A stretch of 28,260 bases of DNA from a virus. The number at the start of each line of letters is the position of its first letter. The first letter of the stretch is position 1. The notes under the pieces were generated by a model. It was not told the DNA's origin. It saw nothing but the letters and a program-made list of their open reading frames with translations, and did no database searches. Positions 1 to 17,641 of this stretch are shown here, in pieces. Made by a program: the position numbers and the translations under genes. The stretch spans positions 1-28,260 of IMG/VR virus record IMGVR_UViG_3300046804_003852. One strand, written 5' to 3'.

Positions 1-3000
1 TTCCTACTTGAAGCGTGGAACCACTTACATTAAATGAGCCTGTAAGATAAATTCCAGCACCACTTTGTGCAAACAAACTGCTGCTCAATCCATTACTTCC
101 ACTAAACAATGCCAATGCAAAGCTTGTCCCTGTTATTATAGGACTTGTACCAGATGTACCTGCGGAACCTGCTGTGCCAGACGTTCCAGAGCTTCCAGCA
201 CTGCCGCTGCTTCCAGATGTACCCGCACTGCCACTAGTACCAGCACTGCCAGATGTTCCGCTTGTTCCCGAACTGCCACTTGAACCGCTTGTGCCACTTG
301 AACCACTTGTTCCAGAAGTACCAGCACTGCCAGAACTACCGCTGCTACCATCTGTTCCGCTTGTGCCAGCACTTCCGCTTGAGCCACTCGTACCCGCACT
401 GCCAGAACTACCGCTGCTGCCATCTGTTCCACTTGTTCCAGCACTTCCGCTTGATCCGCTTGTACCAGCACTGCCAGATGTTCCGCTTGTTCCCGAACTG
501 CCGCTTGAACCGCTTGTGCCGCTTGAACCACTTGTTCCAGATGTACCCGAACTACCAGAACTACCGCTGCTGCCATCTGTTCCGCTTGTGCCAGCACTTC
601 CGCTTGAGCCACTTGTACCCGCACTGCCAGAACTACCGCTTGTCCCTGCGCTACCACTTGATCCATCCGTTCCAGATGTTCCCGCACTACCAGAACTTCC
701 GCCTGTACCACTGCTGCCGCTTGTTCCTGCACTTCCATCCGTACCACTGGTTCCAGAACTTCCACTGGTTCCAGCCGTTCCAGAGGATCCACTGGTACCC
801 GCACTACCACCGGAACCACTTGTCCCCGAACTGCCACTTGTGCCACTAGTTCCATCCGTGCCAGATGTTCCACTGGTACCACTGCTGCCACTTGTTCCAG
901 CAGAACCACTGCTTCCATCTGTACCAGATGTTCCAGACGAACCACTTGTTCCACTGCTTCCGCTTGTGCCACTGCTACCACTGCTGCCACCAGATCCACT
1001 GGATCCACTCGTTCCACTCGAACCGCTTGTACCAGCGCTGCCACTGCTGCCGCTTGTTCCACTGCTTCCACTGCTTCCTCCCGTTCCACTGCTGCCACTG
1101 GTTCCAGACGTTCCACTCGTTCCACTACTTCCACTGCTTCCGCCAGTGCCGCTGCTTCCACTTGTACCGCTGCTTCCGCTGCTGCCACTGGTTCCGTCTG
1201 TACCAGAGGTACCAGAAGATCCACTTGAACCTGATGTTCCACTACTACCACCGCTACCACTGGTTCCTGTCGTACCACTACTACCGCTTGAGCCACCAGT
1301 TCCACTCGAACCTCCTGTTCCCGCACTGCCACTGCTTCCACTTGAACCTGATGTTCCGCTACTTCCACTGGTTCCGCTATAACTTAGAGCATATGATGCG
1401 GTCAATGCTTGTAGTGCATATGATGCTGTTCCCAACAATGAGGCTGTCACCCCACCATTTACAGACATGCTTCCTGTAACAATAACAGAGCCAGTTACCA
1501 ACAGTGATCCACTGACTTCAAGCGTGTCTGCATTGCTTGACATCAACACACCGCCAGAATCACCGTTGAAATTGAATGAACCGGAAACATTCAATGAACC
1601 AGTTACATTGACAGCCTGAACAAGATTGCTGACATATGATGATGTCAAAGCATATGAAGCTGTGCCATATATTGGTCCACTTACATACAATGAACTTGTT
1701 ATTTTTACACTGCCTGTAAATACATGTGTGTTACTTAATGAAGTTCCAAACTGTGTGCTTCCAGTGACAAATTCCGTGGAAGATGTTATATTTTGGACAT
1801 AAAGATTCGTAACAAGAATATTTGAGGCGGTGACATTCTGCGTCACATTCAATGAACCTGTAATCAATACATTTCCATTTACATCCAATGTAGCATTTGC
1901 ATTTGATTTGTTTACACCAACTCCTGTTCCACCATCAAATATTGAACTTGTTGTTAGTGTTGTCGCATTGCTGAATTTCGCGACATAATTTGAAGTTCCG
2001 CCTGATATTGTTCCAGCGCCGGATGAACCACTGCTGCCACTTGAACCAGCAGTTCCAGAAGAACCCGAAGAACCAGACGAGCCAGAACTTCCGCTTGTTC
2101 CTGTTGTTCCACTGCTGCCAGCCGTGCCACTGCTGCCACTGGACCCACTCGTTCCGCTTGTTCCAGAAGATCCTGCTGTTCCAGATGTTCCGCTTGAACC
2201 AGAACTTCCATCAGTACCACTTGTACCACTGCTACCAGCGGTACCAGAAGATCCACTCGATCCGCTGCTTCCACTTGTACCTGCGGTTCCACTTGATCCG
2301 CTTGTGCCAGAAGTTCCACTGCTTCCACTGCTGCCATCTGTTCCACTTGTTCCGCTTGATCCACCACTTCCGCTGCTACCACTTGATCCATCCGTTCCAC
2401 TTGTTCCAGAACTTCCGCTGCTGCCAGCAGTACCAGAAGATCCACTGCTTCCAGAAGTACCTGAACTTCCACTCGTGCCACCTGTTCCAGAAGATCCACT
2501 GCTGCCGCTTGATCCACTGCTTCCACTGCTTCCACTTGTTGCGCTTGTGCCACTTGATCCACTGCTTCCACTTGTGCCAGAGGATCCAGAAGATCCACTG
2601 CTTCCACTGCTTCCGCTGCTTCCATCAGTTCCGCTTGTGCCGCTTGAACCAGAAGTTCCACTGCTTCCACCTGTTCCAGACGTACCACTGCTACCGCTTG
2701 TTCCTCCAGTTCCACTGCTTCCACCAGTTCCAGATGTTCCGCTTGAACCAGACGTTCCAGCCGTTCCACTGCTTCCGCTGCTTCCACTTGTACCAGCGCT
2801 TCCACTACTTCCACTTGAACCATCCGTTCCACTTGTTCCCGCGCTTCCACTCGAACCAGAACTTCCACTTGAACCAGATGTACCGTCTGTTCCAGATGTT
2901 CCACTGCTGCCAGAAGATCCAGAAGTCCCGCTGCTTCCACTTGTTCCACCCGTGCCACTTGTACCACTTGTTCCAGAGCTTCCGCTACTGCCACTTGAAC

Positions 3001-6000
3001 CAGAAGATCCGCTGCTGCCATCTGTTCCAGCAGTTCCACTGGTTCCAGCACTGCCAGAACTTCCACTGGTTCCATCCGTTCCAGATGTTCCACTCGAACC
3101 ACTGGTTCCTGCTGAACCAGAGGATCCACTAGAACCGGATGTTCCCGAAGAACCACTTGTGCCAGAACTTCCAGACGTTCCAGACGAACCAGACGAACCG
3201 CCGCTTCCGCTTGATCCGCTTGTGCCACTGCTTCCCGAAGTGCCAGAGCTTCCATCGGTTCCACTGGTTCCACTACTTCCGCTGGTACCAGAACTTCCAC
3301 TGGTTCCACTTGTACCATCAGTTCCACTTGTACCAGAGCTTCCGCTGGATCCGCTTGTTCCAGAGCTTCCACTACTACCGCTTGAACCACTTGTACCACT
3401 GCTGCCAGATGTTCCACTTGAACCACTTGTACCACTTGTACCATCCGTGCCGCTTGTTCCAGCAGTGCCAGAACTACCTGATGTACCAGAATAGCTCAAT
3501 GCATAACTTGCAGTCATTGCCCAACTTGCCGTTCCGTGCAATGATGCCGTCAAATTTCCGCTCAAATATGCATCGCCATTGCTGTATACATTGAAAAGTG
3601 AATTGCTTCCGCTGCCAATTCTGAACAATGGATTGTTTGCATCGGATGTATCTGATATTACAACTATGTTTCCATTGTTTATTCCAGTAATAGCCACATC
3701 TCCCGATGCGGAAACATCCAATGAAAGATTAGTATTGCTTCCTGTAAACAATATTGAAGAAGCTGTCAATACTGTATTATTGGATCCAAATGCATTTAAC
3801 GCATATGACGCGGTCAATGCACTCAATGCATAACTCGCTGTTCCCAACAACGAACCAGTCATTCCTCCAAGTGCAGTCAATGATCCGCTGACAACAAAAC
3901 TTCCAGTTATAAGTTCATTGCTACTGGTTATATTTTGTACATACAATGTAGATACGGTAATGATGGACGCGGTAACTTGGCCGAACGTGACATTACTTGC
4001 ACTATTGAAAGCGAGACCACCATTGTTCTCAAGTTGAGCAGAACTGGTGACCATGTTTTCTGGAGTATAACCAGAAGATCCGCTGCTGCCAGAACTTCCG
4101 CTTGAACCAGATGTGCCACTCGTACCAGAAGATCCAGCCGATCCAGATGATCCACTTGTACCACTGCTGCCGCTTGTTCCACTGCTTCCAGATGTTCCGC
4201 TTGAACCCGAAGTTCCACTTGAACCAGACGAGCCATCTGTTCCACTTGTACCACTGCTGCCGCTTGTGCCAGAAGTTCCTGAGCTTCCACTTGTACCACT
4301 GCTGCCACTTGTTCCGCTGCTTCCACTGCTACCACTGGTTCCGTCTGTTCCACTAGTTCCGCTGCTTCCGCTTGTACCAGCAGATCCAGCACTTCCACTC
4401 GTACCAGCCGATCCTCCACTGCCACTTGAACCACTCGATCCACTAGATCCATCGGTACCACTTGTTCCACTGCTACCGCTTGTTCCAGCACTTCCACTTG
4501 ATCCACTGCTTCCATCTGTACCAGATGTTCCGCTGCTTCCACTTGTGCCTGCCGATCCAGACGAACCAGATGTACCAGAAGATCCGCTGGTGCCGCTTGT
4601 ACCACTGCTGCCAGAAGTTCCACTGGTACCACTGCTACCACTCGTTCCTGCTGTCCCACTTGAACCAGACGAACCTCCTGTACCTGAACTTCCTGACGTT
4701 CCGCTGCTTCCACTGGTTCCATCCGTTCCGCTTGTACCAGAACTTCCGCTGCTGCCAGAAGTTCCTGTTGTTCCAGAAGAACCAGACGTTCCAGAAGTAC
4801 CAGACGAACCAGCGCTTCCACTTGAACCATCGGTTCCACTTGTACCACTGCTACCAGATGTTCCAGAAGAACCAGATGAGCCGCTGCTACCACTTGAACC
4901 ACTTGTTCCTCCAGTGCCGCTGCTACCAGCTGAACCAGATGATCCACTTGAACCAGAGGTTCCACTTGTTCCGCTGCTGCCACTTGTTCCGCTTGTTCCA
5001 CTGCTGCCACTGGTGCCAGAGCTTCCACTTGAGCCAGAACTTCCACTCGATCCAGATGTGCCAGAAGAACCGCTTGTACCGCTTGAACCGCTTGTTCCAC
5101 TGCTTCCAGAAGATCCCGATGTTCCAGACGATCCACTGGTTGCGCTTGTTCCACTGCTTCCGCTGGTACCACTGCTGCCGCTGCTTCCACTTGAACCAGA
5201 CGTTCCGCTTGTACCGCTTGTGCCACTGCTGCCGCTAGTTCCAGACGTACCCGAAGTACCATCCGTTCCGCTGGTTCCGCTTGAACCAGAAGAACCACTC
5301 GTTCCACTCGTTCCACTCGAACCGCTTGTGCCAGAAGAACCAGCTGTTCCACTGCTTCCACTGCTTCCACTCGTTCCACTTGAACCGCTTGTACCAGAAG
5401 TGCCACTCGACCCTGATGTACCCGCTGTTCCACTGCTACCGCTGCTGCCATCTGTGCCAGAAGTTCCACTGCTACCAGAAGTGCCAGAAGTTCCACTCGT
5501 TCCATCCGTGCCAGACGTTCCGCTTGTTCCACTGCTTCCGCTTGTGCCACTTGTGCCGCTTGTACCAGATGTGCTGGTATTAAAGGCATAACTGGCTGTC
5601 ACAGCATATGATGATGTTCCTTGGATTGAATATCCTTCCTGCACAACAATATTACCATCAACCAATACACTTCCTGTGAAAGTATGAGTATCGGTCAAAC
5701 TTGTTCCAAATTCGGTACTGCCTGAAACAAAATTAACACTGCTTGTGATTGTGACAACATGAAGATCTGTTACTTGAATTGCCGAAGCGGTAATGCTATT
5801 GACGTTGATGTCAATTCCATCTTTTATGCTGTCCGCCGTCATCGCATAACTTGCTGTTCCAGCAAATTGCGAAGTGCTTGTTATTTTATCGACATTGGCA
5901 TATTCGACATAAGATGCCGTCAAAGAATATGAACCAGATTCGGAATAAGACGATGATACTCCGTATGATGAACTAAGAGCATAAGAAGCGGATTCCGCAT

Positions 6001-6334
6001 ATGAACCAGAAATAGAATATGAACCAGATTCAGAATATGATGCTGTTACGGCATTTAAAGCCCAAGATGCCGTGTCTGGTGCACCGATGACATAAGACGC
6101 TGAAACTGCATAATCGGAATATGATGATGAAAGTGCATTAATAGACCAACTTGATGTATCTGGCAATCCAAGCACATATGAAGCTGTCAAAGCTTGACTT
6201 GCTGTCAAATATGCAATTTGGTCACTTTTTATTGAACCAGTTACAACAACATTTCCATTTATAAGTACGCTGCCAGAAAAACTGGATGTACCAGTTACAA
6301 TCAAGCCATTTCTGACAATTAGTTCGTTACTCAT
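1..6334 (-). CDS. Giant collagen-like fibre protein (3' end beyond left edge)
   Basis: One reading frame stays open from the ATG at 6334 to the left edge, at least 2,111 codons; I translated the non-repeat parts by hand and found no stop. It starts MSNELIVRNG. Order of parts: N-terminal module (residues 1-256) with SYxxSx and TASYA repeats; collagen-like tract A (257-755); module B (756-949); tract B (950-1441); module C (1442-1653); tract C (1654-2062); start of a further module. Tracts are Gly-Thr-Ser, Gly-Ser-Ser and Gly-Thr-Asp triplets, practically without proline. Modules carry text typical of phage tail-fibre proteins, for example GVGVNKSNANATLDVNGNV and GYTPEN. It follows gp15 in the virion operon, so a tail fibre, whisker or head-decorating fibre is likely; which one cannot be told. 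The frame was easy to miss because the tracts are also open in other frames on both strands. Confidence 0.85.
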   Translation of the reverse strand, partial: MSNELIVRNGLIVTGTSSFSGSVLINGNVVVTGSIKSDQIAYLTASQALTASYVLGLPDTSSWSINALSSSYSDYAVSASYVIGAPDTASWALNAVTASYSESGSYSISGSYAESASYALSSSYGVSSSYSESGSYSLTASYVEYANVDKITSTSQFAGTASYAMTADSIKDGIDINVNSITASAIQVTDLHVVTITSSVNFVSGSTEFGTSLTDTHTFTGSVLVDGNIVVQEGYSIQGTSSYAVTASYAFNTSTSGTSGTSGTSGSSGTSGTSGTDGTSGTSGTSGSSGTSGTDGSSGSSGTAGTSGSSGTSGTSGSSGTSGSSGSSGTAGSSGTSGSSGTSGTSGSSGSSGTSGTDGTSGTSGTSGSSGTSGTSGTSGSSGSSGSSGTSGSSGTSATSGSSGTSGSSGSSGTSGSSGTSGSSGTSGSSGSSGSSGSSGTSGSSGTSGTSGSSGTSGTSGSSGSSGSAGSSGTGGTSGSSGSSGSSGSSGTSGSSGTSGTDGSSGSAGSSGTSGTSGSSGTTGTSGSSGSSGTSGTDGTSGSSGTSGSSGTGGSSGSSGTAGTSGSSGTSGTSGSSGTSGTSGSSGTSGSSGSAGTSGSSGTSGTDGSSGSSGSAGTSGSSGTSGTDGSSGSSGSSGSGGSAGTSGSAGSAGTSGSSGTSGTDGTSGSSGSSGTSGSSGTSGSSGTSGTSGSSGTSGTDGSSGSSGTSGSSGTSGSSGTSGSSGTSGSSGSAGSSGTSGTSGSSGSSGSSGSSGYTPENMVTSSAQLENNGGLAFNSASNVTFGQVTASIITVSTLYVQNITSSNELITGSFVVSGSLTALGGMTGSLLGTASYALSALTASYALNAFGSNNTVLTASSILFTGSNTNLSLDVSASGDVAITGINNGNIVVISDTSDANNPLFRIGSGSNSLFNVYSNGDAYLSGNLTASLHGTASWAMTASYALSYSGTSGSSGTAGTSGTDGTSGTSGSSGTSGSSGTSGSSGSSGSSGTSGSSGSSGTSGTDGTSGTSGSSGTSGSSGTSGTDGSSGTSGSSGTSGSSGSGGSSGSSGTSGSSGTSGSSGTSGSSGSSGSAGTSGSSGTSGTDGTSGSSGSAGTSGTAGTDGSSGSSGSSGSSGSSGTSGTSGTGGTSGSSGTSGSSGSSGTSGTDGTSGSSGSSGSSGSAGTSGTDGSSGSSGSAGTSGSSGSSGTAGTSGSSGTSGTGGSSGTGGTSGSSGTSGTGGSSGTSGSSGTSGTDGSSGSSGSSGSSGSSGTSGSSGSSGTSATSGSSGSSGSSGSSGSSGTGGTSGSSGTSGSSGSSGTAGSSGSSGTSGTDGSSGSSGSGGSSGTSGTDGSSGSSGTSGTSGSSGTAGTSGSSGSSGSSGTAGSSGTSGTDGSSGSSGTSGTAGSSGTSGTSGSSGSSGTAGSSGTTGTSGSSGSSGSSGSSGTAGSSGSSGSSGAGTISGGTSNYVAKFSNATTLTTSSIFDGGTGVGVNKSNANATLDVNGNVLITGSLNVTQNVTASNILVTNLYVQNITSSTEFVTGSTQFGTSLSNTHVFTGSVKITSSLYVSGPIYGTASYALTSSYVSNLVQAVNVTGSLNVSGSFNFNGDSGGVLMSSNADTLEVSGSLLVTGSVIVTGSMSVNGGVTASLLGTASYALQALTASYALSYSGTSGSSGTSGSSGSSGSAGTGGSSGTGGSSGSSGTTGTSGSGGSSGTSGSSGSSGTSGTDGTSGSSGSSGTSGSSGTGGSSGSSGTSGTSGTSGSSGTGGSSGSSGTSGSSGSAGTSGSSGTSGSSGSGGSSGSSGTSGSSGTSGSSGTSGTDGSSGSAGTSGSSGTSGTSGTDGTSGTSGSSGTSGSGGSAGTSGSSGTAGTSGSSGTSGTDGSAGTSGSSGTGGSSGSAGTSGTDGSSGSAGTSGSSGSAGTSGSSGSAGTSGTDGSSGSSGSSGTSGTSGSSGTSGSSGSSGTSGTSGSAGTSGSSGSAGTSGTDGSSGSSGSAGTSGSSGSAGTSGTDGSSGSSGSAGTSGTSGSSGTSGSSGSSGTSGTSGSAGTSGSAGTSGSSGSAGSSGTSGTAGSAGTSGTSPIITGTSFALALFSGSNGLSSSLFAQSGAGIYLTGSFNVSGSTLQVG
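149..1375 (-). repeat. Collagen-like tract C of the giant fibre (about 136 Gly-x-x triplets)
   Basis: Residues 1654-2062 are Gly-x-x triplets with no interruption that I noticed. The tract ends in GTSGTSPIITGTS and passes into a new non-collagen segment that continues past the left edge, so a further module, and perhaps another tract, may follow outside the window. Confidence 0.88.
2012..3487 (-). repeat. Collagen-like tract B of the giant fibre (about 164 Gly-x-x triplets)
   Basis: Residues 950-1441 follow the same Gly-Thr/Ser-Ser/Asp/Ala pattern as tract A. A single glycine-to-alanine change is seen at the codon 2540-2542, in the same ATS context as the interruption in tract A. The tract is flanked by TASYA text on its N-terminal side and by GAGTISGG on its C-terminal side. 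Confidence 0.9.
4070..5566 (-). repeat. Collagen-like tract A of the giant fibre (about 166 Gly-x-x triplets)
   Basis: Residues 257-755 of the giant protein are nearly unbroken Gly-x-x triplets such as GTSGSSGTDG, with Ser, Thr, Ala and Asp in the x positions. One glycine is replaced by alanine (codon at 5141-5143). The DNA repeat is imperfect because glycine, serine and threonine codons are varied. Confidence 0.9.
5906..6040 (-). repeat. Hexapeptide SYxxSx repeat in the fibre N-terminal module
   Basis: Seven consecutive six-residue units and a partial eighth are read on the minus strand: SYSESG, SYSISG, SYAESA, SYALSS, SYGVSS, SYSESG, SYSLTA, SYV. The Ser-Tyr pair is invariant. The same motif appears singly as TASYA at the ends of modules B and C and as TASYV in gp15. 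A strict hexad suggests a regular beta structure, perhaps trimeric; the fold is inference. Confidence 0.8.
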
Positions 6335-6433: not shown

Positions 6434-6463
6434 CGCATGTTTGAAAAATCAAACAATCATGCG
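6434..6463. other. Interrupted hairpin overlapping the gp15 stop codon
   Basis: GTTTGA and TCAAAC pair around AAAA, and the outer CGCAT and ATGCG pair beyond a four-base bulge. The structure covers the last codons of gp15 and its TGA stop. It may stabilise the 3' end of the gp15 message or form part of a weak terminator. The role is a guess. Confidence 0.35.
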
Positions 6464-7846
6464 TATCATTTTTATTGTCCATGTACCGCTAAATGCAGTA
6501 GCGAGCAAGTTTATGTTTCCGCCGGTGTTATCTACCGAAAGATTCACTGGTACAGTGCCGATTTCACTGACCTCTGTGTTGTAATATTTAACCATAGTAT
6601 TGTTCCAATTTGCCACCATCTCACTGGCTTTGAAATTATTGACCCCATCATTGATAGAAATGAGCCATTTTGCCGTGTTTCCATATTCAATCGGTATGGT
6701 ATCAATATATACAGAACCAGAATCTGGTGTAACGTCTACTACTATGTTTGTTCCTATTGAACCAGTTGCTCCCGCTTCTCCGCTGATCGTAATACCATTG
6801 AAATTTCCGTTCATTTGTGAGAAGTTGACATAACTTGCCGTGGTTGCAAAATTTGCCACGTTGGCTGTTCCAGCAGTATTGGCGAAATTGGCTATCTGTG
6901 TCAATCCTGGGAATCCTCCAAAAGCTCCAACAGATGCGGCTGGCGACTTCATTTGCACAGGTGTTGCTTTTCCTATTTCCGATATAGAAGTTGTATTGTC
7001 TGTCAAAACCTCTGTTGTAAACAATATTTTTCTTGGACTGAATGCCTTCTGTACTGTTGACTTGTAGTTTTCAAATTTATCCGGAAGCAGATACGCATTG
7101 ACCATCAGCGTGAATGTGCTTTTGACCATTCTGTCGTTTCCAGCGTCTGTGGATGTTTCAAAACTATAATCGCTGACATTTGTTCTGAACTTGAATCTTT
7201 TCTTGTCTCCCCAATAATCTTCTGTGGCAAAGCTTATTGCTTCTATAATCGCATTGTTTTGCTCGATCAATTCCGTCCACACAATGAATTCGTAATTTAT
7301 GATCACATGATCTGGCATTGCGACGGAATAAGCTTCCTTGACTGGAGCAAATCCGTTCATCACTGAAAACTTGTCGTATTGGTTCTTTTGTGAGAATTTC
7401 TTTATCGTTGGATATTGCAAATAGCGATTAAGTGTTATGAGACTGTCATTTCTCTGCATTGCGCTTCTTCTGAATGCAATGGCTGGAGTTTGTATTTTTC
7501 CATTCTTGTCTCTCATTGCACCGTCTTTTCGTATGGTTTTCCATCTTTCTGGCGATGCATAATTGATTGGAACTTTGATCTGACGACCAGCATCAACTAT
7601 GGTTGGACTTATGACATTGTCCATATGAGTCATGATGGTGGAATCAACATCAATCAAGGTTATTGAAATGTTCTTCTGAGTATCAGTATCTCTGCGCAGA
7701 TCAAATGCTCGATTTGGATTATGGTTTGGACCAAATGAAGATTCCTTGATCGGCTTCTTTGAATCAGACATCTCCATTCCAGTGTTTACTGGATTGAATG
7801 GTGGCACATTTATTGCCGGTTTAGATGATGGTCCACGCCATGCCAT
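6449..7846 (-). CDS. 15: Tail sheath completion protein (T4 gp15-like) with extra C-terminal domain
   Basis: 465 residues. In T4, gp15 caps the tail tube and sheath and joins the tail to the head. Residues about 70-260 follow the T4 gp15 plan: a stretch with IKVPINYASPERW matching the T4 VPITYAS region, a basic segment with PAIAFRR, and then an alternating segment ending LMVNAYLLPD. T4 gp15 is 272 residues; this protein has about 165 more. The extension (300-465) carries TASYV (336-340), EAGATGS, and a beta-rich end with IDTIPIEYG and GGNINLLAT that resembles a domain I recall from other phage virion proteins. AGGA lies about ten bases before the ATG. It sits between gp14 and the giant fibre gene, matching the T4 order 13-14-15. 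Confidence 0.75.
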   Translation of the reverse strand: MAWRGPSSKPAINVPPFNPVNTGMEMSDSKKPIKESSFGPNHNPNRAFDLRRDTDTQKNISITLIDVDSTIMTHMDNVISPTIVDAGRQIKVPINYASPERWKTIRKDGAMRDKNGKIQTPAIAFRRSAMQRNDSLITLNRYLQYPTIKKFSQKNQYDKFSVMNGFAPVKEAYSVAMPDHVIINYEFIVWTELIEQNNAIIEAISFATEDYWGDKKRFKFRTNVSDYSFETSTDAGNDRMVKSTFTLMVNAYLLPDKFENYKSTVQKAFSPRKILFTTEVLTDNTTSISEIGKATPVQMKSPAASVGAFGGFPGLTQIANFANTAGTANVANFATTASYVNFSQMNGNFNGITISGEAGATGSIGTNIVVDVTPDSGSVYIDTIPIEYGNTAKWLISINDGVNNFKASEMVANWNNTMVKYYNTEVSEIGTVPVNLSVDNTGGNINLLATAFSGTWTIKMIRMIV

Positions 7847-8983: not shown

Positions 8984-10030
8984 TTATGTTAGTGAATATC
9001 CTGCTGCTGCTAATCCATATCTAGCTGTTGGATTGGAATTTACTGTATTAGATGCGACCACACCCGTATTACTAACAAGGTTGGTAAGAGCATATCTAGT
9101 ACCATTAACTTCGCCAAATCCAAATATTGCTTTATCACCACCGTATCCAGAAGCAGCCAACCAACTTCTCTCTTGTACACCTAAGTTTGCTGCATCCGAC
9201 GCGATTACTCCTGTATTGGATACTAGATTAGTAGTACGCTGATACTGATTACTGCTTATTCCAAATCCAAGTATAGCTTTGTCTCCGCCGTAAGTTGCTC
9301 CAGTACATTGTCTCCGTGAACTTCCTGCCGCTGCGCTTGTATCTGATGCAACAACACCAGTATCGCTTATGAGATTAATAGTTGATAATTCGGTAGTATC
9401 ATTGGTTGTTCCATATGCAAACATAGCTTTACCAGCCCCACCGTATCTGGTTGCTGCTAGGTTCCATCTAGCCGTTCCAACGCCAGTCGTATCGCTGGCC
9501 ACAACACCGGTGTTGCTTACTAGATTTGTCATGGATACTCTATATGGTGAAGTGCTGCTATCATATCCATATCCAAATATAGCTTTGTCTAGACCATAAC
9601 CAGTTGCCGCCAAACGAGATCTGATAGTTCCAACACCTAATGTATTACTTGCAACAACCCCAGTGTTGCTTACAAGGTTGGTCACGCCTGCTCCAAAAAG
9701 ACCAGAACCGGGAGTACCGACCCCATATGAAAAAATAGCTTTGTCTGTACCATAAGTTGCTGCTGCTAGATTATGTCTAGCAGTTCCGACGCCTGTTGTA
9801 TCATTGGCCAGCACGCCTGTGTTGCTTACTAGATTGGTCATTGAAACATAATCAGCAGTAATACCATATCCAAAAATGGCTTTTTGTGTATTGGATACAG
9901 CAATTGGATCACTGTATACTTTGCGAATTTTAAATGTAGACAAAACGGAAGAACCATTATTTATATTGGTGTATTTCATTGTAGCACCGCTTGCCCCGCT
10001 ATTATTATTGTTTAAATATTTTATAGGCAT
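8984..10030 (-). CDS. Six-repeat Kelch-like propeller, likely virion adhesin
   Basis: 348 residues. After a 48-residue leader the protein is six tandem repeats of about 47-52 residues. Each begins DKAIFGYG or similar and continues with TNLVSNTGVVASDT and a GVGTAR...LAATGYG end. The last repeat finishes at the C-terminus. The pattern is typical of beta-propeller blades of the Kelch/RCC1 kind; six such units could close one propeller. The leader starts MPIKYLNNNN and has a second MKYTNINN, matching the start of the neighbouring Asp-box protein. No enzyme motif is seen. A role in binding the host surface, attached to baseplate or fibre, is inferred. Confidence 0.7.
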   Translation of the reverse strand: MPIKYLNNNNSGASGATMKYTNINNGSSVLSTFKIRKVYSDPIAVSNTQKAIFGYGITADYVSMTNLVSNTGVLANDTTGVGTARHNLAAATYGTDKAIFSYGVGTPGSGLFGAGVTNLVSNTGVVASNTLGVGTIRSRLAATGYGLDKAIFGYGYDSSTSPYRVSMTNLVSNTGVVASDTTGVGTARWNLAATRYGGAGKAMFAYGTTNDTTELSTINLISDTGVVASDTSAAAGSSRRQCTGATYGGDKAILGFGISSNQYQRTTNLVSNTGVIASDAANLGVQERSWLAASGYGGDKAIFGFGEVNGTRYALTNLVSNTGVVASNTVNSNPTARYGLAAAGYSLT

Positions 10031-10034
10031 ATGC

Positions 10035-11684
10035 TTATAATCCGTATGTTGCCTTTGTGGAATTATAATTCTGAGATATCTCGCTTGCTGTTAATTCTTT
10101 GTTGTAGCACAATGCCTGACCTATTCTTCCATTCAGTAAGTTTCCACCGCCAAATGCTGCTATATTTGTAGAACCATTTCCACCATGTGCTGATTTATTT
10201 GCAGTATATGTGCTGTCCAATGCACCGTTGATATACAAAGCCATTCCGTTTGTAGTGCTAAATGTCAGCGCAATGTTATACCAAGTATTCAAACTCAATG
10301 TGCCAGTTGATGGATATGCTGCATAATTTCCCCAATTGGCGTGACCAGAATAAATTCTATTACTACCTGCCATATACAAGAAATGGCCACCAGTGTCACT
10401 ACTGATCATGTTATTGTCACCATATGCATTCAGATACACCCATACATTTTTTGTATATGCTGTGGTTGGAAGAAGATTGGTCGTAGCCCCAGTTCCATAT
10501 TGCGTTGTTCCATTGAATGTGAAATAAGAAGGCGTGCCAGATGTGTATGTTGGGCTATTGACTAGAGTTATATTTGCGGAATTTCCAGATATATCATACC
10601 AAGTATTTCCACTGCCATTGTATGACGATGCGTTGTTTGGATTCAAATTCATCGTCAAACCAGAAGATACAATGCCACTCGGATTAGGAATGATCAATTT
10701 TACGTTGGATGTTCTGGTGTTGTTGCTTCTATTTTTGTATTTTATAGTGGGGTTACTCGTCAAAGTATAATTCATCGATGCATAGACTATGTTATTTGTA
10801 GTAGTATCTTCCGCGTCTACAAATACTCCGTTTCCATAAGTTATATGATTTCCATTTTCGTTACTGGCGGGTGGACCACCGGATGATATATTTGTCCAAG
10901 TAGCACCATCGGTAGAATATGCGGGTACATTCCCAGCTATCACAAAATATCCATCTCCGTATGTAACACCCGTGCCGTTTCTACCAGATATGGTTGCCCA
11001 CGTGGCTCCATTGTCCGTGGACCTCGCCGCTGCAATTGGACCAACAACAACCCATACACCGTTTCCATATGCCGAGCTGTACCAATAAGTATCTGATGGT
11101 AAAGACGCAGAATTCCAATTTAATCCATTTGTTGAAGTGATACACGCTGATCCAAGATAGGGAATAGCTAAAAATCTTCCACCTCCAAAAGCAAGATTTC
11201 TGAAAGAGATACCTACTGGCACATTTGTAGGTCTACCACGACCTGTCCAATTTATTCCATCGGTAGATGTAAGAATTATGTTATCTGAACTGCTTTCACA
11301 AGTTGTTACCCAAATATTATTTCCATAAGCAATTCCCCATCGAGCATTATTTGCTGCTTGATATGTATCGGTCCAAGTTAAACCATTATTGGAAGATGTA
11401 TATAAAACTTTATTGTTACTGGTCATTGGCGACACAGCCACCCATAATCCATTTCCATATGCTGCATTTCTTATCCCGCCAGCACTGGACACCCGCTTGT
11501 CCCAAGAACCAGTTCCACTTGTAGATTTGGCAATAAAATCGTCGCCAACAAGAACAAAAATACCATTTCCATAGGCTATACCATAATTTTTCAATGAAAA
11601 TCCGGTACTGTTTGTTGTCCAAGACCCTGGTCCATTTGCAACATTTGAACCAACATTGCTTCTGTTTGTAAATTTTACAGGCAT
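10035..11684 (-). CDS. Asp-box beta-propeller plus LamG-like domain, likely adhesin
   Basis: 549 residues. Residues 30-305 hold six Asp-box type motifs (STSGTGSW, SSNNGLTW, STDGINW, STNGLNW, STDNGATW, STDGATW) spaced about 40 residues apart. Most follow an AYGNGxF/W strand, as in sialidase-fold propellers. No arginine triad or other sialidase catalytic set was recognised, so binding rather than cleavage is favoured. Residues 335-549 look like a concanavalin A/laminin-G-like jelly roll: YDISGN, NTWYNIALTF, ALYINGALDS and a final GRIGQALCYNKELTASEI. The start MPVKFTNRSN recurs inside as TIKYKNRSNN at 313-322, at the junction of the two domains. It lies between gp13 and the second propeller gene. 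Host-receptor recognition is inferred. Confidence 0.75.
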   Translation of the reverse strand: MPVKFTNRSNVGSNVANGPGSWTTNSTGFSLKNYGIAYGNGIFVLVGDDFIAKSTSGTGSWDKRVSSAGGIRNAAYGNGLWVAVSPMTSNNKVLYTSSNNGLTWTDTYQAANNARWGIAYGNNIWVTTCESSSDNIILTSTDGINWTGRGRPTNVPVGISFRNLAFGGGRFLAIPYLGSACITSTNGLNWNSASLPSDTYWYSSAYGNGVWVVVGPIAAARSTDNGATWATISGRNGTGVTYGDGYFVIAGNVPAYSTDGATWTNISSGGPPASNENGNHITYGNGVFVDAEDTTTNNIVYASMNYTLTSNPTIKYKNRSNNTRTSNVKLIIPNPSGIVSSGLTMNLNPNNASSYNGSGNTWYDISGNSANITLVNSPTYTSGTPSYFTFNGTTQYGTGATTNLLPTTAYTKNVWVYLNAYGDNNMISSDTGGHFLYMAGSNRIYSGHANWGNYAAYPSTGTLSLNTWYNIALTFSTTNGMALYINGALDSTYTANKSAHGGNGSTNIAAFGGGNLLNGRIGQALCYNKELTASEISQNYNSTKATYGL

Positions 11685-13751: not shown

Positions 13752-13766
13752 TTTTTTAATTCAGCG
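13746..13766. terminator. Hairpin between the two convergent genes
   Basis: CGCTGA and TCAGCG pair around a T-rich nine-base loop, covering the stop codons of the plus-strand gene and the endonuclease gene. The loop supplies the T-run rather than a tail, so it would be a weak bidirectional terminator at best. Confidence 0.3.
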
Positions 13767-14544
13767 GCCAATCCTTAAGGTCTGCCTTTGATCCTTCAAG
13801 CAACTTCTGCTTGTCCTTTGGCAACTTCGGATTGAAGTCAATACCCGTCTTTTGTTCGATTTCTTCAATGCTTACAATATACTTTGGAAGATCGGCAACT
13901 GGCAATGGAGCATTTGGGAAAAGGAAAGATATTGACTTGTTTGCCTTGGCATCAATAACCACTTTCCAAAGATAATCAGGAATGCCAACTTTGTTATCTC
14001 CGATTGTTTTATAATCCTTGTTATAGATTGTGCCGCTGATAACATACAGATCCTTGCCCCCATCAACAACCCAATTTCTTACACATGTTTCCAATTGTTT
14101 CCAAATTCCGCGATTGTGATTTGGAACTTGTGGAACCATATTGGTGAGGAAGAAACTTTCGCTCATTGTTTCTTCGTTTAGAGTAGAATCACCAGCGGGT
14201 ACAAGATGCCCACGGTCAAATGGATGACCAGCATAGTCACTTAACAACGATTGGTTCTTCTTTTCAACTTCTGGATCTGGACGAAAATCGTCCTTGCGCT
14301 TTGCTGGACCAGTAACCTTGTCTTTGGTTGGATGCTCAACAACATATTCAGCGGTCTTTGTATCAAATCTATAATGTATGGCATAAATTTTTTTCACCAA
14401 ATATTGATTATTTTTTGTTATCGAACTGACTGGTGCGCCATTTACTACAATGTTTGATGCCTTATCATCGATTGGATTGGCGACCAAAACGGTGACCAAT
14501 GTTAGCATGCTCAAAATATATGTATATAATTTCTTCATAGGCAT
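13756..14544 (-). CDS. Secreted DNA/RNA non-specific endonuclease (DRGH family)
   Basis: 262 residues from MPMKKLY, or 260 from the second ATG at 14538. The family (Serratia nuclease/NUC1, beta-beta-alpha-metal fold) cuts DNA and RNA without sequence preference. Counting from the second ATG: a signal peptide MKKLYTYILSMLTLVTVLVA; DRGH at 108-111 with general-base His111 inside DRGHLVPAGD; and NHNRGIWKQLE with the likely metal-binding Asn142 and Glu150. The catalytic set appears complete. An N-terminal extension of the same frame, back to 15072 inside gp23, has unnatural composition and was discarded. The gene lies between the gp23 terminator and the convergent plus-strand gene and does not belong to the T4 head pathway. 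The signal peptide implies action in the periplasm or outside the cell. Confidence 0.85.
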   Translation of the reverse strand: MPMKKLYTYILSMLTLVTVLVANPIDDKASNIVVNGAPVSSITKNNQYLVKKIYAIHYRFDTKTAEYVVEHPTKDKVTGPAKRKDDFRPDPEVEKKNQSLLSDYAGHPFDRGHLVPAGDSTLNEETMSESFFLTNMVPQVPNHNRGIWKQLETCVRNWVVDGGKDLYVISGTIYNKDYKTIGDNKVGIPDYLWKVVIDAKANKSISFLFPNAPLPVADLPKYIVSIEEIEQKTGIDFNPKLPKDKQKLLEGSKADLKDWPLN

Positions 14545-14571
14545 AAAGTAATATATATCACATAGACAATA

Positions 14572-14601
14572 AAAAAGACCCGCCTTGCAGCGGGTCTTTT
14601 T
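14572..14601 (-). terminator. Intrinsic terminator after gp23
   Basis: AAAAAGACCCGC and GCGGGTCTTTTT form a perfect 12-bp stem around a six-base loop. On the minus strand the GC-rich core is followed by a run of T, giving a strong factor-independent terminator 26 bases after the gp23 stop codon. The A-run on the other side makes it workable in both directions. It separates capsid transcription from the endonuclease gene. Confidence 0.9.
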
Positions 14602-16273: not shown

Positions 16274-17641
16274 TTACTTACGAATACCGGCCAATTTCTT
16301 AAAGCGGTTTGCCATGTCGGCTCCTTCGTTAAGAACTGCGGTTGTTGTCGGCTTGGTTGATGCGACTGGCTTGCTGGCTAATCCTTCAGTGATATTCTTG
16401 ACAGTTGTGGAAACTTGCTTTTTGGCTGTTTCTGCTGTCTTCTTTGCACTGCTATTTAGGGATTCTGCGAGCGTAGCGTAAACGAGTTTTGCTTCACGAA
16501 CCGACTTTGTGAGGTCAAATGACTCGATTATCTTCAACTTCTGTTCATTTGTGAAATTGCCCTGCTTGAACAGTTTGTTCGTGTAGAGCAGCTTCGAGTT
16601 GAGCAGGTTGATTTCATTGATCTGGTTCCGCAGATATGTTACAGCGCTGCGGTATTCTTCTAGTTCCTTCTTCAACGAAATGTTTTCTTGGATGACGGCT
16701 TCATTGGCTTCTTCTTTTTCGCCTTTTCCGTGGTCTTTTTGCCACTTCTTTAGGTCTTCGATGCCTTCGTCTGTTTTTCCTTCTTCTTCGGAAAGAAGCT
16801 CGTCGAGGTTGATTTCTTCCAATTCTTCAGCGGCTGGAGCAGCTGTTTCTGTTGGAGCGGCTTCTGTTGGAGCGGAAGTTTCTTCCATACCAACTTCATT
16901 CAGACCGTTTTCAAGTTCCTTTAGGATTTCATCCAAAGTAGATTCTTCGATTTCATCGCCTTCCTTGAGAGCGCCGCCTGGGGTGCTCATCGCGGTGGCT
17001 TGTTCTACTTCCTGACCCTTGTTATCGGTCTTTGGAGCCTTGTTGTGCATGTCCTTTACAGGACCGCCCTTTTGCTGTGTGCCAGCGCCATCGTAATTGT
17101 CAGAAGCCTTGCGGTCTGATGATACAGCTTTGCCACCTTCACCTGGAGTGGACAGCTTTGTGGCGTCCTTGACTTCCTGACCCTTGTTGTCGGTCTTGTG
17201 GCCTTTTGTTTTTGCACTGTAGTTTCCTGATGCTTTCTTTGCTTCCAAAGCCAAAGATTTTTCCACTGGATCAGGATTTCCAGATCCCAATGTTTGATAT
17301 TCTTCGATTTCTTCTTCGGCAACAGGAACTTCTTCTGCTGCTGGAGCAGGAGCGGCTTCTGGAGCAGGAGCGGCTTCTGGAGCAGGAGCGGCTTCTGGAG
17401 CAGGAGCGGTAGCTGCCATTGCGGCGGCATCCTGTGCGGCATCGGCGTGAGGAGCATCGGCAGCTGGCATTTCAGCAGCTTCTTCGGTGCCTTCTTCGGC
17501 CAATTCTTGAGCAAGCTTTTCAGAAAGCATGCTTTGTAGCTTTGAACCAAATTGCTCTTCAAGAGCAGCCTTGGCGTTTGATAGTGCAGTTGCGCGAACG
17601 GCTTTAGCGTCGGCAATTGCTTGTTTCAGTAGATCTGACAT
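16274..17641 (-). CDS. 22: Prohead core scaffold protein (T4 gp22-like), enlarged
   Basis: 455 residues against 269 in T4. gp22 forms the internal core on which the capsid assembles and is later degraded by gp21. The start MSDLLKQAIADAKAVRATAL and the C-terminal third match the family: an acidic coiled coil about 315-360, a stretch with FTNEQKLKIIESFDL comparable to the T4 ESQKEKVSALVEGMDY region, and an end MANRFKKLAGI comparable to T4 VASRF. The extra length is a low-complexity insert (60-275) with four APAPEA units, a duplicated 26-residue module (146-171 and 201-226, core KTDNKGQEV) and acidic Ala/Thr stretches. AAGGA lies before the ATG. It immediately precedes gp23, as in T4. Confidence 0.9.
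   Translation of the reverse strand: MSDLLKQAIADAKAVRATALSNAKAALEEQFGSKLQSMLSEKLAQELAEEGTEEAAEMPAADAPHADAAQDAAAMAATAPAPEAAPAPEAAPAPEAAPAPAAEEVPVAEEEIEEYQTLGSGNPDPVEKSLALEAKKASGNYSAKTKGHKTDNKGQEVKDATKLSTPGEGGKAVSSDRKASDNYDGAGTQQKGGPVKDMHNKAPKTDNKGQEVEQATAMSTPGGALKEGDEIEESTLDEILKELENGLNEVGMEETSAPTEAAPTETAAPAAEELEEINLDELLSEEEGKTDEGIEDLKKWQKDHGKGEKEEANEAVIQENISLKKELEEYRSAVTYLRNQINEINLLNSKLLYTNKLFKQGNFTNEQKLKIIESFDLTKSVREAKLVYATLAESLNSSAKKTAETAKKQVSTTVKNITEGLASKPVASTKPTTTAVLNEGADMANRFKKLAGIRK
16964..17206 (-). repeat. Duplicated KTDNKGQEV module inside gp22
   Basis: Residues 146-171 and 201-226 of the scaffold protein share the pattern KxxKTDNKGQEVxxATxxSTPG. The copies lie at 17129-17206 and 16964-17041 with a 29-residue spacer that includes ASDNYDGAGTQQKGG. 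The nine-residue core is identical. This points to an internal duplication. Confidence 0.8.
17341..17412 (-). repeat. 18-bp tandem repeat in gp22 (APAPEA units)
   Basis: The plus strand carries CTGGAGCAGGAGCGGCTT three times in a row from 17341, with a fourth copy diverging in its last bases. Each unit encodes six residues of an Ala-Pro-Glu linker. The near-identical DNA suggests recent expansion and possible copy-number variation between isolates. Confidence 0.85.

Follow-up and report, generated by a model that had tools for sequence, protein, structure and literature searches.

Proline is regarded as central to collagen stability. Among the closest described systems, EPclA, a phage-encoded protein, adopts a genuine triple helix whose stability was ascribed partly to its high proline content (PMC3368898), and bacterial collagens overall favor Pro at the X position and Thr at the Y position of the Gly-X-Y triplet (PMC8968730). 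The collagen region of the spore protein F-BclA, with 701 residues and 45% Ser/Thr, has a calculated length of 196 nm and a measured length of 204 nm (PMC11952670). In this study, we analyzed a viral window (the whole stretch of 28,260 nucleotides of IMG/VR record IMGVR_UViG_3300046804_003852) that carries a giant gene with proline-free Gly-X-Y tracts. The explanation that we favor, and consider reasonably probable, is a giant virion fiber of a T4-like phage, in which a trimer registered by its modules would carry triple-helical tracts as thin stalks.

The giant gene and its Gly-X-Y tracts

The giant fiber gene (2..6334, minus strand) runs from an ATG at 6334 to position 2 with no stop across the 2,111 codons present, its 3' end being cut by the contig edge. 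An earlier note on this DNA, made from the sequence alone, had described a single stop-free frame of 6.3 kb, which was borne out and lies on the minus strand. Within it, tract 1 (4064..5566, minus strand; aa 257-757) contains 167 triplets with one Gly to Ala replacement at aa 398, in an ATS triplet at 5135..5143; tract 2 (2012..3487, minus strand; aa 950-1441) contains 164 triplets with one such replacement at aa 1265 (ATS, 2534..2542); and tract 3 (143..1375, minus strand; aa 1654-2064) contains 137 unbroken triplets. Together they comprise 468 triplets and 1,404 residues, the two replacements being the sole breaks within these limits; the earlier counts of 166, 164 and 136 triplets and about 1,400 residues were correct within one triplet.

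Composition analysis revealed that the three tracts have no Pro at all, where practically none had been claimed, and no Lys, Arg or Glu. The X position is occupied by Ser (241) or Thr (223) in 464 of 467 triplets, and the Y position by Ser (371 of 467, 79%), Ala (44), Asp (28), Gly (19) and Thr (5). In these counts, tract 2 is taken two triplets further than the above limits; Gly is then found at the first position of 467 of 470 triplets, for which the probability by composition alone (34.5% Gly) is about 10^-216. The Pfam Collagen family PF01391 matched the tracts with 540.6 bits (cut-off 27.2), a composition-driven match, and the richness in imino acids at X and Y that is typical, although not defining, of collagens is absent, with no Pro. 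Both TCN and AGY types of Ser codon are used at X and Y, and the order of triplets has no strong longer period, with one marginal lag of 17 triplets in tract 3. As a separate observation, Asp in the tracts (aa 257-2064) occurs at Y only, and all 28 Asp residues are preceded by Thr at X and never by Ser (Fisher p = 4e-10).

The full-length gene was found in L007 (50,066 bases) and L008 (184,824 bases), IMG/VR contigs of two separate metagenomes, where the complete protein of 3,410 and 3,407 aa, respectively, ends at a stop codon. The stop beyond the window edge, for which the earlier note had proposed to search by extending the contig, was thereby located in relatives, and because they stop only at this length, the window gene continues past the contig edge rather than ending there. 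The complete proteins contain five tracts of 163, 161, 115, 80 or 79, and 84 triplets (602-603 in total), and the three tracts present in a third contig, L006, have 164, 161 and 113 triplets, so that the window, L006 and L007 possess 167, 164 and 163 triplets in tract 1 and 164, 161 and 161 in tract 2. A second collagen-like fiber gene begins shortly after the stop of the first in L007 and L008 (also at L026:1040-2065). It has a differing N-terminus (MPDRILHKRNTTIGAVPSTSSLIVGELAIN... / LHKRNTTIGAVPSTSSLIVGELAIN), followed by a module like those of the first gene and an S/T tract, of which at least 67 triplets are present up to the contig end. A tblastn search of 50,697 phage records with the N-terminus and module M1 revealed no close relative.

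When tracts 1-3 of L006 and L007, which are 83-87% identical in nucleotides, were aligned triplet by triplet, Gly codons had 156 synonymous differences and 1 non-synonymous difference, whereas X codons had 167 silent and 25 changed and Y codons 148 silent and 31 changed. The tracts of L007 and L008 were identical save for one inserted 9-base unit. Between the window and L006 or L007, at most 4 Gly residues per tract were changed against 51-84 silent differences, in alignments of about 73-75% identity with 21-42 gap units per tract. Thus, the Gly periodicity is under strong selection at the protein level. The 156:1 ratio rules out neutral slippage and shows that selection acts on the minus-strand frame rather than on the antisense ones; together with the use of both Ser codon types and the lack of a strong longer period, it also dismisses an artefact of DNA slippage. 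The long open frames on the opposite strand (window 1-6334, plus strand), with repeats of a Pro-Leu-Val type, mirror the Gly codons and have no support as genes. The idea that compensating gains and losses hold tract length constant was set aside because tracts of such low complexity cannot be aligned with enough certainty.

Modules and genomic setting

The tracts alternate with short modules. The N-terminal module M0 (5567..6334, minus strand; aa 1-256) shares 73-74% identity with L006 and L007, keeps its MSNELIVRNG start in the relatives, and contains ASYA-type repeats and a C-terminal part that shares homology with the modules between the tracts. Module M1 (3488..4063, minus strand; aa 758-949) is 79-80% identical to M1 of L006 and L007 and 58% identical to M4 of L007, and M2 (1376..2011, minus strand; aa 1442-1653) has homologues in the M4 and M5 modules of the full-length relative, these three sharing 49-59% mutual identity. 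By sequence comparison, M1, M2, M4, M5 and part of M0 are homologous to one another. The start of M3 (2..142, minus strand; aa 2065-2111) is cut by the contig end and has 79% identity over 47 aa; in L007, M3 is a longer and different domain of 518 aa.

A profile search of viral contigs for relatives of the modules gave 79 stretches at 76 loci, 31 of which (query family included) had Gly-X-Y tracts on the same strand. Pfam analysis of M0, M1, M2, M3 and M5 detected no fiber domain and none of the PfN or PfC domains that flank EPclA-type tracts, yielding only sub-threshold Bactofilin matches; no trimerization domain was recognized in the modules by Pfam, and profile searches of NCBIfam and PDB with the modules gave no relative. 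AlphaFold2 monomer models were extended with almost no strands for M2 (mean pLDDT 69) and had almost no secondary structure for M0 (mean pLDDT 43), and Foldseek with the low-confidence M2 model found no match. An extended module chain without hydrogen bonds of its own would fit an intertwined trimer, a state that monomer models do not contain.

The window is a T4-like structural block on one strand, comprising terminase, portal, protease, gp23-type capsid protein and head-tail adaptor genes. The capsid protein is nearest to those of Microcystis phage Mel-JY01 (57%) and Flavobacterium immuto phages (54%). Directly upstream of the fiber gene lies a tail completion/sheath stabilizer-like gene (6449..7846, minus strand; phrog_227, a weak match with E 9e-4), an orthologue of immuto gp213 with 40% identity, and in immuto phages several tail-fiber and structural genes lie between the gp213 orthologue and the tail sheath gene. 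Since the giant gene sits in a T4-like structural block, at the place corresponding to the tail-fiber genes of immuto phages, its product is likely a virion fiber. The fiber-like architecture proposed from the sequence alone also stood, in that homologous modules alternate with Gly-X-Y tracts and phage tail-fiber PHROGs match the protein, some matches spanning a tract into a module. No tape measure gene was found on the relative's contig.

Several other features of these contigs were observed. First, a DNA/RNA non-specific endonuclease gene (PF01223; window 13756-14600, minus strand) with a signal-peptide-like start lies between the capsid and adaptor genes, and L009 has a GIY-YIG endonuclease gene on the opposite strand, downstream of its capsid gene. 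Second, two repeat proteins are encoded at window 8984-11684 (minus strand), one with YGGDKAIFGYG-type repeats and the other with STDGITWT-type repeats and a Laminin_G_3 domain; in L007 and L008, both repeat types are united in one 658-aa gene, which suggests domain shuffling. Third, an 18-base tandem repeat (17337-17409; 4.1 copies, 98% matches) encodes APAPEA repeats in an acidic gene upstream of the capsid gene. Finally, a relative's phage contig contains a DUF1800/DUF1501 pair and a full Hsp70 (DnaK) gene (L019:3453-6321, L021:11447-13321), with smooth GC variation and no obvious chimera.

Fold of the tracts

In the arrangement that we favor, each chain would consist of short homologous modules alternating with very long Gly-(Ser/Thr)-Ser tracts, the modules resembling fiber-shaft units that each end in a ASYALTASYALSYS-type segment. 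Three chains would most likely join via the modules, which would fix the register, and the tracts would wind into triple helices forming thin stalks of about 140, 140 and 120 nm in the window. At 0.286 nm per residue, the tracts amount to 143 + 141 + 118 = 402 nm in the window and to 517 nm in the complete relative, modules uncounted in both cases. The previous estimate of about 400 nm is reproduced by 468 triplets x 3 x 0.286 nm, provided that a triple helix forms, and the conversion is supported by the agreement between the calculated and measured lengths of F-BclA. The whole fiber may be about 0.4 micrometer long here and about 0.5 micrometer in the complete relatives. We infer that it attaches to the virion, with the tail, baseplate and neck as candidate sites, and extends outward to capture host surfaces or glycans; module M3 and the C-terminus may be the parts that bind.

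A triple helix is the best, albeit unproven, explanation of the tracts. Host-guest data of Persikov et al. reportedly place Thr at X and Ser at Y among the weak triple-helix residues. With no Pro and with Thr at X, an unmodified triple helix should accordingly be weak, and the tracts would therefore be stabilized in another way or would not form a canonical collagen helix. Sequence searches of PDB with the protein returned collagens only, by composition, and since matches to collagens in PDB, Pfam and NCBIfam are driven by Gly periodicity, they say nothing on the fold. Asp contacts, one of the stabilizers previously proposed, appear unlikely as the main one: the tracts have no Lys or Arg, Asp is not conserved, and tracts 3-5 of L007 and L008 contain 3, 0 and 0 Asp residues. 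Salt bridges inside the tracts are excluded by the absence of cationic residues.

The alternative that survives best keeps the same fiber with non-canonical tracts, either parallel untwisted PPII-type strands or a looser trimer held by the modules, and we judge it unlikely though worth keeping in mind. Untwisted trimeric PPII packing occurs in the C1q stem, and PPII bundles occur in the snow flea antifreeze protein and the S16 tail-fiber adhesin (PMC11869133); in addition, the composition with Thr at X and Ser at Y is unlike that of known collagens. However, the known bundles fold back on short strands joined by turns, whereas the window tracts of 137-167 triplets have at most one Gly to Ala replacement each and no turn-like break, running for up to 137 triplets with no turn-forming interruption. 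A parallel trimer is therefore the only plausible PPII form.

It is improbable that the tracts are flexible Gly/Ser/Thr linkers whose periodicity arose by repeat expansion. Although their composition resembles that of engineered Gly-Ser linkers and the indels occur in whole 9-base units (L007 vs L008), linkers need no Gly at every third residue, and Gly was nearly never lost despite the silent change (156:1), with X and Y residues also conserved.

We would give similarly little credence to an O-glycosylated mucin-like stalk, in which sugars added to Thr and Ser at X by phage- or host-encoded glycosyltransferases, rather than a helix, would stiffen the stalk or mask the particle. A hydroxyl group is present on nearly all X residues, BclA-type collagens are O-glycosylated (PMC11952670, PMC8968730), and a relative's contig (G001) encodes several glycosyltransferases, including a PF11397 GlcNAc transferase, as well as UDP-galactopyranose mutase. 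On the other hand, glycosyltransferases of either family were found in 17 of 19 phages with S/T tracts and 19 of 22 comparison phages (p = 1), and being as common in phages without such tracts, they are no evidence for glycosylation of the fiber. PF00534 alone differed (17/19 vs 13/22, p = 0.04) in a small sample uncontrolled for genome size or lineage, glycosyltransferases of pelagimyophages have been tied to host surface sugars (PMC7029224), no glycosyltransferase gene adjoins the fiber gene within the window, and a mucin needs no period of three.

Finally, an assembly artefact or chimera that lengthened or joined the tracts is hardly credible: the window, L006, L007, L008, L009 and L261 all end within fiber genes, mostly inside a tract, which is expected as assemblies tend to break in repeats, yet the same complete gene occurs in contigs of two separate metagenomes (L007 and L008), with its five tracts identical but for one triplet, and L006 has the same order and near-identical tract lengths.

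Distribution of S/T tracts and comparison with known systems

To place the giant fiber among viral collagen-like tracts, we used two samples, neither of them a census. Scanning viral contigs for 12 consecutive G-[ST]-[ST]-like triplets gave at least 120 stretches, and the S/T loci listed include proteins with several hundred triplets and tracts of up to 789 (L101) and 785 (L055) triplets. The separate sample covered any viral Gly-X-Y tract of at least 20 triplets and contained 184 tracts among the matches listed; Pro accounted for at least 10% of X and Y residues in 97 of these and for less than 2% in 47, and 17 of the 184 were S/T-rich without proline. A longest tract of at least 137 triplets was present in 4% of 117 loci among the matches listed, where the median longest tract was also greater for the S/T class (68; 11 loci) than for the proline class (35; 72 loci; Mann-Whitney p = 0.014). 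The earlier note had considered a proline-free collagen of this length to be unusual. Given the 4% of listed loci and the 47 of 184 listed tracts, the length is indeed unusual but the absence of proline is not in viral contigs, and longer S/T tracts, of 785 and 789 triplets, exist.

Thr was strongly biased in position. In 210 distinct viral S/T tracts among the matches listed, many of them from related contigs, Thr occurred 10,007 times at X and 978 times at Y, and the median fraction of Thr at X per tract was 0.94 in S/T tracts (205 tracts) compared with 0.03 in proline-type tracts (102 tracts), again among the matches listed. This bias is no artefact of the search because the pattern treats X and Y alike. 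The position of Thr thus makes S/T tracts (Thr at X, Ser at Y) recognizable as a class distinct from proline-type viral tracts (Thr at Y). A wide genome scan gave mostly short simple repeats in bacteria, which are of another kind, and a search of the open-access literature for GTSGSSG-type phage tracts found nothing relevant. A short S/T Gly-X-Y gene is also present in an isolate, Microcystis phage Mel-JY01 (L011:4147-4900; PP395634.1, about 9.1-9.9 kb), where it is split by a frameshift in the record and antisense hypothetical genes are annotated over it instead.

Returning to the triple-helical fiber, similar proline-free S/T fiber proteins occur in many uncultured phages, and we tentatively suggest, at somewhat less than even confidence, that they form a widespread class of phage fibers in which a collagen triple helix obeys its own sequence code (Thr or Ser at X and Ser at Y, without proline) over 100 to nearly 800 triplets, giving fibers of 0.4-0.7 micrometer stabilized otherwise than by imino acids or salt bridges. 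O-glycans on Thr at X, water networks and the register imposed by the modules would be candidate stabilizers. Natural, conserved and long proline-free tracts with a reversed Thr position allow the requirements of a triple helix to be tested directly; if they fold, they would provide a simple material written in two letters (GTS/GSS) that E. coli could express with no need for hydroxylation. Fibers several times the typical tail length, if true, would revise ideas on host finding in dilute water. Genes of this type are easy to overlook: contigs tend to break within them, they are masked by low-complexity filters, antisense genes are annotated over such a tract in one isolate record, and NCBIfam would call them LPXTG adhesins.

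Comparison with known systems places the protein as follows. The Scl/Lcl adhesins (NCBIfam NF038329, NF046116 and NF038330) are LPXTG-anchored and have an N-terminal domain of their own, neither of which was found here; NF038329 scored 580.8 (cut-off 325) through the tracts only, the modules alone matching nothing, and as the gene sits in a phage block, this identity was rejected. The S16 gp38 adhesin (6F45) and the snow flea antifreeze protein (2PNE) likewise have Gly-rich strands with three residues per turn, but theirs are short and folded back, whereas more than 100 unbroken triplets run in one direction here. F-BclA and BclA share a long Ser/Thr-rich collagen region, which forms a measured stalk of about 200 nm (PMC11952670), but they are cellular spore proteins with a single tract and a C1q-like C-terminal head. 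Relative to bacterial collagens as a whole, which prefer Pro in the X position and Thr in the Y position (PMC8968730), the tracts described here have Thr at X, Ser at Y and no Pro. S/T proteins of other uncultured phages (L101, L055, L073, L079, L082 and others) follow the same rule with no or almost no proline, although most of them are without the ASYA module type and their tracts reach 789 triplets. PHROGs 5073, 6320, 8745 and 1806 (collagen like minor tail) match the tracts, by composition, and partly the modules. EPclA and EPclB, collagen-like side-tail proteins encoded by E. coli O157:H7 prophages (PMC3368898), likewise join phage Gly-X-Y tracts to other modules, and EPclA was shown to be a dumbbell-shaped trimeric triple helix. 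However, EPclA is rich in proline, its Col domains are shorter, and it has PfN, PfC and PCoil domains that were not recognized here, whereas the present predicted fiber has far longer tracts without proline. Judged against the open-access literature, the giant protein is a new form of the already known phage collagen-like fibers.
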